A DNA stretch of 64,000 nucleotides from Pseudomonadota bacterium (lineage in GTDB: Bacteria > Pseudomonadota > Alphaproteobacteria > Rhizobiales > MH13), in contig JBCCPK010000006.1 in NCBI GenBank assembly GCA_039024915.1, positions 62,001-126,000 on the forward strand, read 5' to 3'. A model generated the notes under the pieces. That model did no database searches. It had not been told where the DNA came from and was given only the letters and a program-made list of their open reading frames with translations. Shown in pieces: positions 51,489 to 57,034 of the stretch (position 1 is the first letter of the stretch; each line of letters opens with the position of its first letter). A program made the translations under genes and the position numbers.

Positions 51489-51656
51489 GGTTGATATCCT
51501 ATTGTGGGTGGCCAAGCGGGCGGTTGTGACGCCCCTTCGATTGCGGTGATAGCGCGGCCTTGGTGGCGCTTCAATGGCTTCAACGCACACCTGAACGATG
51601 ATATATGCTCGGCACGCGGGGTATTTTCCTTCCGACTCGAAAGGCTTCACGCTCTC

Positions 51657-53153
51657 ATGGCGATAGCACATGCAGATCCTTCGCACTCAACGCTGACCAC
51701 CAACGATGCGCGCGAAGCAGTCGACGCGCTAGACGAGATTTACAAGGACGAAACAGCGCGTCTTCGTGACGCTTTTTATGCCCATATGGAGGCTGGCAGC
51801 GGTTCAACGCAAAAGGCGCATGGCGGCAAAGTTCGCGGTTTTTACCCGTTTATACGGGTCGCGACCCAAACCTATGCCGATGTCGATTCCCGTTTGGCGT
51901 ATGGGCACGTCACAAGGCCGGGCACCCACGAAACCACGATCACGCAACCGGGACTTTACCGGAACTATTTGCTTGAACAGATCGGCGCGCTGATCGCCAA
52001 TCACGAAATGCCGGTTGAGGTCGGGCTATCATCAACGCCGATTCCCATCCACTTTGCGTTCCCTGATGGTATGGTCTTAAGCGGGGATGGGACCGTCGAA
52101 GACGACCGTCCCCTGCGAGACTATTTCGATGTGCCCGATCTTGGCATCACGGACGACGCGATCGTCAATGGGGTAGCACCGTCGTTATCAATGGAGCCCT
52201 ACCCGCTATCGCTGTTTACCGCGCCGCGCATCGATTATTCGCTCTATCGTCTCAAGCACTACACCGCGACGCCGCCGGACGCATTCCAAAACTTTGTTCT
52301 TTACACGAACTATCAATTCTATATCGATGAATTCATTGAATTTTCGAAAAACGAACTATCGAAACCAGATAGCGTCTACAGCCACTTCGTCGAACCAGGT
52401 GGTAAAACCACATTTCACGTGCGGTTGAACAAACAGGCGGAAGGGACCGCCGCGGCGCGTGTGCCGCAAATGCCCGCCTACCACTTGTGTACGGCCAATC
52501 AGGGCGGCGTCTCGATTGTCAATATTGGGGTTGGTCCCTCGAACGCTAAGACCATCACCGACCATGTGGCCGTTTTGCGCTCGCACGCATGGTTGATGCT
52601 TGGGCACTGCGCCGGACTGCGCAATTCGCAACGGTTGGGAGATTACGTTCTGGCGCACGGGTATGTGCGCGAAGACCACGTTCTGGATGCCGACTTGCCA
52701 CCCTGGGTTCCTATTCCCCCGCTCGCGGAAGTGCAGGTTGCGCTTGAGCAGGCTGTTGCGGAAATCACCAACTTGTCGGGTTATGATCTCAAGCGAATTA
52801 TGCGGACTGGTACGGTCGCGACGATTGACAATCGGAATTGGGAACTTCGCGACTTCTCAGAGCCCGTCGAGCGGTTCTCGCAGTCTCGCGCCGTGGCGCT
52901 GGATATGGAATCGGCAACGATCGCCGCGAATGGGTTCCGGTTTCGTGTACCCTATGGGACGCTTTTGTGCGTCTCCGACAAGCCGCTTCACGGCGAACTG
53001 AAACTACCGGGCATGGCGAGCGCGTTTTATAAGACGCAGGTCAATCAGCACCTTCAGATCGGCATTCGCGCCATGGAGCTTTTGCGCGCGATGCCCAATG
53101 AACGCTTGCACTCGCGCAAGCTGCGCAGTTTTTCCGAATCGGCATTCCAGTAG
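51657..53153 (+). CDS. amn: AMP nucleosidase
   Basis: Hydrolyses AMP to adenine and ribose 5-phosphate. The 498-residue protein has the N-terminal regulatory domain ([23 protein letters not shown], in parts) and the C-terminal phosphorylase-like domain ([47 protein letters not shown]). Glu and Asp for catalysis lie in DMES and VSDKP. The ATG at 51657 is chosen over an upstream start at 51504, which would fall in the shared promoter region with gatC. Confidence 0.93.
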
Positions 53154-53159
53154 CTTATA

Positions 53160-53642
53160 ATGGGACCACCTGCTTGGCTCACCGACCCTCGGGCTTTCCA
53201 GCAGGCGGTCGGCACCAAAGGGCCGCTGCTGGGACTTGACCCCGGCACGAGGACAATCGGAGTGGCAATCAGCGATGTCGATTGGACGCTAGCATCGGCT
53301 CTGGAGACCATCAGGCGCACAAAACTAGTCCAAGATGCGCACACGCTGGCCTCGATCATTGATCGAGAAGGCGTTTGCGGCCTTGTGATCGGTTTGCCCC
53401 TCAACATGGATGGAAGTTCCGGCCCTCGCGCTCAGTCCGTTCGTGGCTTTCGCAGGTCGCTGTCCGAGCATATCGCGCTCCCGATGCTGTTATGGGATGA
53501 GCGGCTATCCTCGGCGTCCGCGGGTGACAAACTGCGTGAAGGTGGCGCGTCGAGGCAGGCCCGTGAACGTCTGCTCGACGCTGCCGCCGCAGCCGAGATT
53601 CTTACTGATGCTATGCGTGCGCTGCGTGCCCTCAATCGGTAA
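53160..53642 (+). CDS. ruvX: RuvX (YqgF) family putative Holliday junction resolvase / rRNA-processing nuclease
   Basis: A 160-residue RNase H-like protein, essential in several bacteria and linked to 16S rRNA maturation or to Holliday junction resolution. Acidic active-site residues appear as Asp27 in LGLDPGTRTIGVA, the Glu in WDERLSS and the Asp in LLDAAAAAEIL. VIGLPLNMDGS is the conserved central motif. It begins six bases after amn and has no obvious ribosome-binding site. Confidence 0.93.
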   Translation: MGPPAWLTDPRAFQQAVGTKGPLLGLDPGTRTIGVAISDVDWTLASALETIRRTKLVQDAHTLASIIDREGVCGLVIGLPLNMDGSSGPRAQSVRGFRRSLSEHIALPMLLWDERLSSASAGDKLREGGASRQARERLLDAAAAAEILTDAMRALRALNR

Positions 53643-53753: not shown

Positions 53754-55901
53754 ATGAGCGGTTTGTCGTTGGCCGAAATGCGTCGAATAGGGACGCAGCG
53801 CAACCAGGAAGCTCAGACCCGATCAACGAAATCCGGCGGCTTTCTTAAGTCGATACGGCGACCAAAGCAGCCGATGGGTGCGCCGGCTCAGGCCACCCAG
53901 GCAACCGTTGAGCGCACACGCGCCACCGCTGAGGAGACGACTGCTTCCGCTGTACTCGTCGATCGAGCCGAAGTAGTGCCACTGCCCCAGCCGGACCCGC
54001 CTGCTGAAGTAGAGGCACCTGCGGTCTCTCCGACAGTGACTGCGGTTCAGCCGACTGTCGATATCTCCGCCGACGACGCAGCGAAACTTCTACCTTCCAG
54101 TCTGTTACGCCATACCTTGGTGGGCGGCTTGGCGGCGGGCATTGCGGGGGTTGCAGGCACGGGAAGTCTTGTCGGCTTGTCTGCGGGCCTCGTTCTCGGC
54201 GGTCTTGGTGGACGGCTCATCGGCCAGAACGCCCAGTCCTTAAGTGTCGCGAGCGTCAAACATGTGCAGCTCGGACCAAAGGCCATGCCGCGCATGCGCG
54301 AAGAGATGCTTGAGATCGCAAGCAAGCTTGGCCAGGAGAAGGCCCGCCTGACGCTTTCCATCACCGACAATGCTGCCGTGCACATTGCGTCCATCAGCGG
54401 CGGAAAGGGAATGATCAAAGCGTCCATCGGTATCGGCCTTTTGCGGCTGATGTCTCAATCGCAAATCGTAGCGCTGTTCGCCCAAAACTTCACGGCCGCA
54501 CGTTACGACGAGCAAACGGGCGGGTTAGACATATCGTTCGACACCGCTTCGAAACTTACCACGCTTGCCAACAATCTCGAAAAACGCCCCGCGCTGGTCC
54601 AACTCAACCGACCGGCAAATCTTTATGCAGCAAGCGCTTCCGCCCACCAATGGTACCAGACCGAGGCGCTCCATCGCGCCAAGGAGAGTGACAAGCTCGC
54701 CACCATATCAATCGCCCGCGAAAGTCTCGCTGATGCGCTTTTGACCAACGCGCTGATTGCCGTGACGCTCCTTGAAGCCATGAAATCTGGTCAGTCTTTC
54801 GACCAATGGCTTGCCGGCGTGTCACAACGATGGAGCAGCCAGACACGGGACAGCGCCCTGCGCTACCTCAGCCAACATCAGATGCCTGACGTTCAAGCGC
54901 ACAATGCGGGTATTCCAATTGATGTGTTCAACCGCATCTCCGCACTCGGCGCTAATTGCCCGATCCCATCTCTGCCAGCCCCGCAGGCAGCCTGGGGTGA
55001 GCTCGAGCCTAAGGTCCAAAAGGCCGTTCAAAAACGCTTGCTTGGCAAGGGATCGGTTCTTGCAACGCAGGGCGGTCCGCTGACCCCTCCGCCGCTTGCG
55101 CCTTCCGACCAGGAATATGTCAATGAGCCGGCAAGCGTTGAACAATCGTCAGCGGCGCCAACAGTTGGCAAATCACGTAAGGGCGGCCTCCTCTCCTCGA
55201 TCCTGAAACCCCGTTCGACCAAGGCACACTCAGCCGAAGGTGTTCTGCAGGCCCACGCTCCACTCTACGAAGCCGATGAGCTCTTCAAAGAGGATACTGT
55301 AACGGGCATCGAGGCTTACAAGACGCTTTTTGATGCAAACCCGCGTTGGGCGTTGGCTCGCTTGCGCCTGGGTGAGGCGCTCGTTGAAAGCGGCTATGCC
55401 GAGGGCGTTGAGCATCTCATGGCAAGTGCGGAGACCTTGCCAAGTGCTCTGCCCACAATTCTTGAGACGCTCAGTGGTTCGTTGGCGATGGTCAGCCCGT
55501 TGGAAGAAGAGCCCCTGCGTCTCGCAATCGAAAAACTGCAACCGCTTTCCATCGGAATTGCTCAGGAGCGGGCGGGAATTGACCTCGATCGTTTGCAACC
55601 GCCGGCGATGGATGAGGCGGATCAGCTGACCCTCATGAACTTATTCGATAACGCTGCAGGACTTGCAGAGGCTTGGGTGTTCTCGCTGCCCGTGGCGTCG
55701 ATGCCGAATGTGCCGCACCATGCCATTTTGGGTCTGGCACCCCAGTTGGACGAGGAGAGCATGGAGAAGCTGTCAACCTACCTGGTTGAGCACGCTGCGG
55801 TCCACGGTACGGTGGTGGTTCACCTTGAGACCGACCGGCCAACCGGTGCGTTGGAAGACGTCTTCGCGTCACAATCGAGCGTTTGGGTTGCACCGCGTTG
55901 A
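53754..55901 (+). CDS. Large protein of unknown function, possibly a degenerate M48-like peptidase
   Basis: A 715-residue protein with no confident family. The N-terminus (1-115) is basic, then Pro/Thr/Ala-rich and probably disordered. A Gly/Ala-rich hydrophobic segment (about 121-157) could span the membrane. Residues 195-360 resemble the order of an M48 metallopeptidase: a beta-strand pair, GIGLLRLMSQSQIVALFA, then an E-S-D helix (311-313) and RESLADALLTNALIAV. The HExxH site instead reads Gln244-Asn-Phe-Thr-Ala248. A TPR-like stretch (about 510-555) and a folded C-terminal region follow. It stands between ruvX and pyrB, with GGAAAG before its ATG. Confidence 0.75.
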   Translation: MSGLSLAEMRRIGTQRNQEAQTRSTKSGGFLKSIRRPKQPMGAPAQATQATVERTRATAEETTASAVLVDRAEVVPLPQPDPPAEVEAPAVSPTVTAVQPTVDISADDAAKLLPSSLLRHTLVGGLAAGIAGVAGTGSLVGLSAGLVLGGLGGRLIGQNAQSLSVASVKHVQLGPKAMPRMREEMLEIASKLGQEKARLTLSITDNAAVHIASISGGKGMIKASIGIGLLRLMSQSQIVALFAQNFTAARYDEQTGGLDISFDTASKLTTLANNLEKRPALVQLNRPANLYAASASAHQWYQTEALHRAKESDKLATISIARESLADALLTNALIAVTLLEAMKSGQSFDQWLAGVSQRWSSQTRDSALRYLSQHQMPDVQAHNAGIPIDVFNRISALGANCPIPSLPAPQAAWGELEPKVQKAVQKRLLGKGSVLATQGGPLTPPPLAPSDQEYVNEPASVEQSSAAPTVGKSRKGGLLSSILKPRSTKAHSAEGVLQAHAPLYEADELFKEDTVTGIEAYKTLFDANPRWALARLRLGEALVESGYAEGVEHLMASAETLPSALPTILETLSGSLAMVSPLEEEPLRLAIEKLQPLSIGIAQERAGIDLDRLQPPAMDEADQLTLMNLFDNAAGLAEAWVFSLPVASMPNVPHHAILGLAPQLDEESMEKLSTYLVEHAAVHGTVVVHLETDRPTGALEDVFASQSSVWVAPR

Positions 55902-55999: not shown

Positions 56000-57034
56000 A
56001 TGACATCCGTACCTTCGCCCGGTTCGGTCGTGGCCAGCGCCCCGGCGGAACCCCTTGCGCCTGCAGATGGTCCGCGCTTTGCGCACAGGCATCTGTTGGG
56101 AATCGACGGACTGAAGCCCTGGGACATTCAGGCCCTTCTTGATCTGTCCGAAGAAGCAATAGCCGTCAGCCGGCGGGTCGAGAAAAAAAGTCTGAAGCTG
56201 CGCGGGCGCACACAGATCAATCTGTTTTTTGAAGCCTCAACGCGCACGCAATCGTCCTTTGAACTCGCCGGCAAGCGGCTCGGTGCCGACGTTATGAACA
56301 TGTCGGTTGCATCATCTTCGGTGAAAAAGGGCGAAACACTCGTCGACACAGCGGCAACGCTCAACGCCATGCGGCCCGACATTATTGTGGTGCGCCACCA
56401 TGCTGCAGGCGCCGTGGCGCTTCTGGCACGGAAGGTTGGTTGCTCGGTGATCAATGCCGGCGACGGGGCTCATGAACACCCCACCCAAGCGTTGTTGGAT
56501 GCCCTTACAATCAGGCGCCACAAGGGAAAGCTGGAAGGGCTCACAGTGGCCATTTGCGGCGACATCAAGCATTCCCGCGTTGCACGCTCGAACCTGCTGT
56601 TGTTGCACGCAATGGGCGCTACGGTTCGCTTTTGCGGGCCTTCCACGCTGCTGCCCGCCGACGCGGAGCGCCTGGGTGCCGAGGTAACGACCTCAATGCG
56701 CAAAGCACTTGAGGGCGCGGACGTCGTGATGATGCTGCGGTTGCAGCGCGAACGTATGAACGCCGCGCTGGTACCCTCAACGCGCGAGTATTTTCGCTAT
56801 TACGGTCTTGATCAAGATAAGCTGACGCTCGCAAAGGACGATGCCTTGGTGATGCACCCCGGTCCTATGAACCGCGGTGTAGAGATTGATCCGGAGATTG
56901 CCGAAAGCTCGCAGAGCGTCATCAACGAGCAGGTTGAGATGGGCGTGGCCGTGCGCATGGCGGTACTTGATGCACTTGCGCATCATCTGCCCAATGGCGA
57001 TGCCCAGAGCAACGAACGTGGCTTTGACGATTGA
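56000..57034 (+). CDS. pyrB: Aspartate carbamoyltransferase catalytic subunit
   Basis: Second step of pyrimidine synthesis, carbamoyl phosphate plus aspartate. The 344-residue enzyme carries the carbamoyl phosphate motif STRT (80-83) in [36 protein letters not shown] and HPGPMNRG. About 30 residues precede the usual start and are Pro/Ala-rich. Its TGA overlaps the ATG of the dihydroorotase-like gene by one base, and the two probably form a complex. Confidence 0.95.

Follow-up and report, generated by a model that had tools for sequence, protein, structure and literature searches.

A probable M48-type pseudoprotease with a TPR-like module, encoded between ruvX and pyrB in an alphaproteobacterium

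Based on sequence and structure comparisons, we suggest that the gene at 53754-55901 of the window (the whole stretch of 64,000 nucleotides that was analysed) encodes a membrane-tethered, non-catalytic TPR adaptor built on a pseudo-M48 scaffold. This is the best reading of the evidence, with a probability of roughly 0.6. It is very probable that the gene product, referred to here as the window protein, is a degenerate M48 protein and, given that it is, an adaptor function is somewhat favored. In the mechanism that we propose, the protein would have originated in a lineage of M48 metallopeptidases with a membrane hairpin in front of the M48 domain and a TPR region and a further C-terminal domain behind it. 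The hairpin would hold the window protein at the inner membrane, the M48 fold would persist as a structural scaffold, and the conserved 17-residue N-terminus together with the TPR and C-terminal domains would bind partner proteins. Because the residues for metal binding and cutting are gone while the protein-binding end is kept, the window protein may hold proteins and not cut them. The net role would be that of an adaptor or holdase tethered to the membrane, not of a cutter.

The gene, its parts and its genomic place

The open reading frame is a real gene. Its G+C content per codon position (0.66/0.48/0.64) is like that of the neighboring genes amn, ruvX, pyrB, pyrC and plsY, and the ATG has a GGAAAG stretch upstream. 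Three of the four orthologues cover the start, and the first residues are kept in all three. A scan for promoters and terminators at the gene gave no excess over shuffled sequences. The parts of the protein are listed in Table 1. Before the hydrophobic stretch, the protein has about 115 residues, most of them hydrophilic. The hydropathy maximum of the protein is at the Gly-rich residues 117-157 (best 19-residue mean 1.76), in agreement with the possible membrane segment that the sequence-only reading had placed before the core, and lesser peaks lie within the core at residues 225-243 and 324-343. Hydropathy of the Gly-rich stretch is higher in the orthologue L008 (2.38) and in the relative L015 (2.29), which is described below. 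The 17-residue N-terminal peptide is kept far better than the adjoining linker and is a possible binding or targeting motif. In the C-terminal domain, His residues in VPHHA, EHAA and VHIET are kept across the genus and could mark a functional site; the first His of VPHHA has a His counterpart in L008, L015, L082, L086 and L094 as well.

Table 1. Coordinates in the window of the gene and of the parts of its product
Feature	Position	Strand	Basis
Whole gene: pseudo-M48/TPR/C-terminal-domain protein, 715 aa	53754..55901	+	
N-terminal conserved motif, 17 residues; two genus orthologues each have 14/17 of these residues	53754..53804	+	orthologue alignment
Linker 1, residues 18-116; low conservation, presumably disordered	53805..54101	+	orthologue alignment
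Gly-rich hydrophobic stretch, residues 117-158; probable membrane hairpin	54102..54227	+	hydropathy only
Pseudo-M48 domain, residues 165-402	54246..54959	+	profile matches, structure model
QNFTA, residues 244-248; position of HExxH	54483..54497	+	profile register, orthologue alignment
A309, at the place of the Glu that is the third zinc ligand, to D313, the E-x-x-A-D Asp, which is invariant	54678..54692	+	alignments
R394; invariant Arg of the HPx4R plug motif	54933..54935	+	alignment; motif from PMC7950410
Linker 2, residues 403-500; low conservation	54960..55253	+	orthologue alignment
TPR-like helices, residues 502-610	55257..55583	+	structure, profile and conservation comparisons
C-terminal domain, putatively alpha/beta, residues 611-715; resembles that of L015/L082	55584..55898	+	profile similarity

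Four further genomes have an orthologous frame, and each belongs to the family of the window (f1), so that five of the 61 genomes searched have the gene; four of the five are in the window's genus and one is in a second genus. The G002 copy is cut off by the start of its contig, and the G004 copy (L008) is split by a scaffold gap, a run of N at 1295-1350 of that locus, and is read there as two halves. With a profile of the f1 orthologues as query, 58 of 397 genomes of the order were matched at E<=0.01, and matches along the profile were restricted to the five f1 genomes. A search of genome contigs with the window protein alone as query gave no match, and no relative of the window protein was found on viral contigs.

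The placement of the gene between ruvX and pyrB in the sequence-only reading was correct: ruvX lies on one side (53160-53642; PF03652, E 4.7e-37) and pyrB on the other (56000-57034; PF02729 and PF00185). Among the relatives, ruvX was matched in 58 of 61, and 30 ruvX loci were compared. The gene is downstream of ruvX in three of these loci, all from f1. Within the stretches compared, pyrB is downstream of ruvX in eight loci, with a distance from the ruvX match of about 160-260 bases in five and about 0.9-1.2 kb in three, while 19 of the 30 have no pyrB in the compared stretch. In G003, the gene order is amn, ruvX, the orthologue, pyrB and pyrC; in G004, the orthologue is again between ruvX and pyrB, the latter following after about 1.1 kb. 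We infer that the gene was inserted at a junction that reads ruvX-pyrB elsewhere in the order. The AMP nucleosidase gene amn (51504-53153 of the window) is upstream of ruvX here and likewise in G001, G003 and G004 (about 2 kb off in the last); an amn match is absent from the other 27 ruvX loci within the stretches compared. The neighboring genes point to no partner protein.

Kinship with M48 and the former active site

Judged by its sequence, the window protein belongs to the M48 lineage: the profile similarity is significant and in the right register. Alignment with hhalign of a profile of four cores of the window family to a profile of 11 M48 proteins with HExxH gave a probability of 97.5% (E 5.3e-12, score 90.6), where the M48 set is not a blind sample because it was largely gathered through profile matches of the window family. 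The best of 100 column shuffles scored 17.6 and the reversed alignment 14.0; a shuffle control this far below the real score argues against a chance likeness to M48. In the protein's own genome, the core profile gave, beyond the gene itself, a single significant match (E 4.4e-4), to an M48 protein labelled HtpX-like from its build, and one further row that was not significant (E 0.56). The M48 layout that had been read from motif order is thus supported by the profile comparison and by the search of the own genome.

Outside f1, matches of the full-length family profile in the order-wide search are weak (best E 2.7e-10). Many lie in the range of about 112-220 of the profile, others in the Gly-rich stretch and a few in the TPR part. 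These matches correspond to 25 loci, 31 weaker rows without a locus being left out. Of the 25, the 18 that the core profile matches at E<=1e-3 have HExxH without exception, and the remaining seven match through the Gly-rich or linker part alone. The register of the core-profile matches bears out the assignment of QNFTA to the HExxH position, since HE sits on the first two QNFTA columns in 30 of 30 matches, in a pool of which much had been pre-filtered for HExxH. Of the 27 matches that cover all five columns, 25 have the exact HExxH and two are shifted by insertions; three more end inside the motif.

Scans of single sequences against family models are silent on this kinship. None of the six rows scanned matched M48 in Pfam, PF01435 was absent among families at E<=10, an NCBIfam scan of the window protein gave no match, and no Pfam or NCBIfam model covers the protein above its own cut-off; a confident match to an unrelated family, which would have spoken against M48, is thus likewise absent. 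A match to C19orf12 (E 0.051), which covers part of the Gly-rich stretch and reaches the core, falls far short of the cut-off and was set aside. A search of PDB sequences with the core profile gave no M48 protein, its single match being a chance-like one to a cytochrome.

An M48 fold of the core is likely, not proven. The core model, made from three sequences and no templates, is of low confidence (mean pLDDT 60.6, pTM 0.62), and the other four models reached 35-43. The predicted order is a helix, three strands, a helix and a long helix. Foldseek gave nothing at E<=0.001 with this model; its top two rows, not significant, are 3c37 (E 0.13) and BepA 6ait (E 0.19). The comparison with M48 structures that had been proposed as a check on the sequence-only reading was also made in a second-look aligner, which re-aligns only Foldseek's own top 832 chains; models that lack a clear match typically reach a best Z of 7-8 in it, and helical models go higher. 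All of the four highest rows are M48 proteins: ZMPSTE24 (Z 10.6; 7.9 Å over 181 residues), Ste24p (10.4; 5.5 Å over 176) and BepA (9.7, with 3.8 Å over 140 residues, and 9.5). Selecase, the Geobacter M48 protein 3c37 (8.2) and HtpX (7.7) follow.

At the HExxH position, the four sequences that cover it read QNFTA (window protein), HRYCL, HALVC and RAFHR, so that none keeps the motif, and HExxH is found nowhere in the window protein or its four orthologues (one cut short and one split by a gap). The Glu that provides the third ligand reads A, Y, M and D, and L in the fifth, truncated sequence, while the Asp of the same E-x-x-A-D motif is kept in five of five. In the HPx4R plug, the Arg is kept in five of five and the His is lost in four of five; the plug His of the window protein is lost because residues 388-394 read PIDVFNR, and in L008 a His precedes the Arg by six residues. 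As a result, the window protein has no zinc ligand and also no catalytic Glu. The first His of HExxH is kept in L005 and L006, and no orthologue has two ligands. Therefore, the window protein cannot work as an M48 peptidase. D313 and R394, which are invariant in the family, do not vary in the 11 M48 proteins either. Thus, the residues for zinc binding and cutting were lost, while those positions of these motifs that have no part in zinc binding were kept. On this sequence evidence, the gene product appears to be a pseudoprotease.

Conserved parts and alternative readings

The TPR-like stretch that had been noted after the core is borne out by structure comparison: residues 502-610 superpose on the designed TPR protein 3kd7 with a TMt of 0.70 and 3.6 Å over 102 columns at a probability of 1.00, in a search with no row at E<=0.001 and with a transporter as its first row. 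TPR sequences of the PDB match this stretch with E 0.0032-0.096. No Pfam TPR family is over its cut-off; TPR_16 appears in two of three members (best E 0.022) and TPR_Slam in one of six rows (0.0049). The TPR and C-terminal part of the window family, compared with that of L015, L082, L086 and L094, gave a probability of 95.7% (E 8.4e-9, score 61.2; best of 100 shuffles, 19.9). Compared separately, the C-terminal domain gave 65.8% (E 5.7e-5) and the TPR region 59.6% (E 8.9e-5). An SseB_C-like nature of the C-terminal domain was considered and dropped, with that family absent from the Pfam scans. Three weak matches to the TPR and C-terminal part from outside the family (L079-L081), obtained in 289 genomes of the class, are by eye other proteins.

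L015 and L082 are from f22 in the same order of bacteria and match PF01435 above the cut-off. Their parts come in the same order as those of the window protein, namely hydrophobic hairpin (computed for L015), M48 domain, linker, TPR region and C-terminal domain, and they are similar to the window family by profile in the M48 and C-terminal parts. However, they keep HEMAH/HELGH, the Glu of E-x-x-A-D and HPx4R, while the window protein is without HExxH; from this motif we assume that L015 and L082 have peptidase activity. Also unlike the window gene, they have no ruvX or pyrB nearby, on the 11-kb contig of L015 or in the 4.8 kb covered for L082, and the L015 contig has none of amn, ruvX, pyrB and pyrC.

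The two groups differ in where they are conserved. Between the window protein and L005/L006, identity is 29/23% in the M48 domain, 62/62% in the TPR region and 51/50% in the C-terminal domain; with two genus orthologues, it is 82/82% in the first 17 residues, 43/36% in the hydrophobic stretch and 18-35% in the linkers. In L015 and L082, a single pair that bears HExxH, the order is reversed, with 56% in the M48 domain, 51% in the TPR region and 46% in the C-terminal domain. It thus seems that constraint has shifted away from the protease and towards the binding parts. The earlier suggestion of a pseudo-protease scaffold gains from these data: the ligands are lost, and the M48 part is poorly kept. 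"Scaffold" suits the domain better than "conserved substrate groove" because it is less kept than the hydrophobic stretch, the TPR region and the C-terminal domain.

A client binder that does not cut is a serious rival, because an edge strand gives BepA chaperone-like activity. In this case, the dead M48 domain would use the edge of its sheet to grip unfolded clients, in the manner of BepA, and the protein would be a chaperone without protease activity. The activity of BepA needs its edge strand (PMC8423444), and strands are predicted to persist in the core of the window protein. However, the fast divergence of the M48 part (23-29% identity) is poor for a conserved client groove, and the protease-dead BepA variant E137Q shows weakened LptD conversion (PMC8423444) and has a dominant negative effect (PMC7950410), so that we regard a chaperone of this kind as rather unlikely. 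The same dominant negative effect (PMC7950410) would fit a protein that regulates an active M48 peptidase of the same cell, for example an HtpX-like one, by competing for substrate or by pairing with it. Such a natural dominant negative has possible targets in the three M48 genes that are above the Pfam cut-off in the genome, but none of these adjoins the gene and the pseudo-domain is poorly conserved; we consider this role improbable.

The two remaining alternatives concern the core itself. The four aligned cores share the invariant residues R250, R278, D313, D366 and R394, which could be taken to form a different active site within the original fold. By contrast, the core has no invariant His, Cys or Glu, D313 and R394 are equally invariant in M48 proteins, and R250 is also found in L014, leaving little room for a new enzyme. 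That the M48 resemblance is convergent and the core an unrelated alpha/beta protein would agree with the missing M48 match of single sequences in Pfam and with the non-significant Foldseek result, but it is hard to reconcile with the shuffle-controlled profile match, the specificity in the own genome, the HExxH register and the invariant Asp and Arg; moreover, the TPR and C-terminal part is separately similar to M48-TPR proteins. We give convergence hardly any credence.

Relation to other M48 proteins and to known systems

With L015 as query, 12 genomes of the order were matched among 297 searched. Of the 12 further loci found in this way, ten have HExxH and two (L086 and L094) have the TPR and C-terminal domains only and no M48 match in Pfam. 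These M48-free proteins, at L086:550-2457 and L094:550-2364, both on the minus strand and in f22 genomes, have by eye a hydrophobic segment after the C-terminal domain, followed by a further part.

A profile of five M48-TPR proteins gave seven loci in six genomes when searched against 289 genomes of the class, and HExxH is present in six of the seven. The seventh, L095 (934-3351, G605), reads GELAR and encodes an M48-TPR protein of 806 aa in another order of the class, in one of the 43 genomes there. Like the window protein, it is an M48-TPR protein without HExxH that keeps the plug Arg, and it has Ile for the third Glu. L095 matches the M48-TPR profile strongly (E 9e-45, 483 profile positions) and the profile of the window family hardly (E 0.018). 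In a tree, it is placed among HExxH-bearing M48-TPR proteins, apart from f1, which needs two changes. We do not claim an independent loss in L095 as shown, because a single origin of the dead forms was not rejected in the AU test (p 0.183) and L095, L008 and L084 are on long branches. Tentatively, and with the odds somewhat against it, we speculate that Alphaproteobacteria may have repeatedly made M48-TPR proteases into non-catalytic adaptors, with the TPR and C-terminal domains as a re-usable partner-binding module that is M48-free in L086 and L094.

Non-peptidase homologues are listed in MEROPS for many families. A 2024 review of inactive metallopeptidase homologues describes proteins that have lost catalytic residues and have protein-binding roles (PMC11266112); its sections cover M12, M14 and others, and the term M48 is absent from its text. 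A paper on piroplasmid parasites places M48 among multitopic proteinases or nonproteinase homologues, and a second one lists a Ste24 with its ligands; in the parts available, neither bears on bacteria. In literature outside subscription papers and MEROPS, no bacterial M48 protein is described as a pseudoprotease among the matches listed, one listing giving the best 10 of 181. If Alphaproteobacteria did make M48-TPR proteases into adaptors in the way speculated above, these would form a class of bacterial M48 pseudoproteases for which no description was found in the literature searched. Pseudoproteases reveal what a protease scaffold does once it is unable to cut. The HExxH-bearing relatives, the dead form that is family-wide, the second dead form and the M48-free paralogues of the TPR module make up a comparable set. 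Therefore, the protease-independent job of M48-TPR proteins, which is known in part for BepA, becomes testable without proteolysis interfering.

HtpX has a membrane hairpin before its M48 domain and is without a TPR region; unlike the window protein, it keeps HExxH. BepA (YfgC) of Escherichia coli and the window protein share the arrangement of an M48 domain followed by a TPR region. In BepA, H136, H140, E201 and H246 are the zinc ligands (PMC7950410, PMC8423444), and HPx4R, E201 and H246 are described as elements of the protein (PMC7950410); all four ligands are lost in the window protein. Moreover, BepA is periplasmic, while the window protein instead has a hydrophobic stretch before the domain. 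Thus, in the comparison with peptidase-chaperones of the BepA type made in the sequence-only reading, the order of M48 and TPR stands, while the nearest proteins by build are L015 and L082, with their hairpin, and not periplasmic BepA itself.
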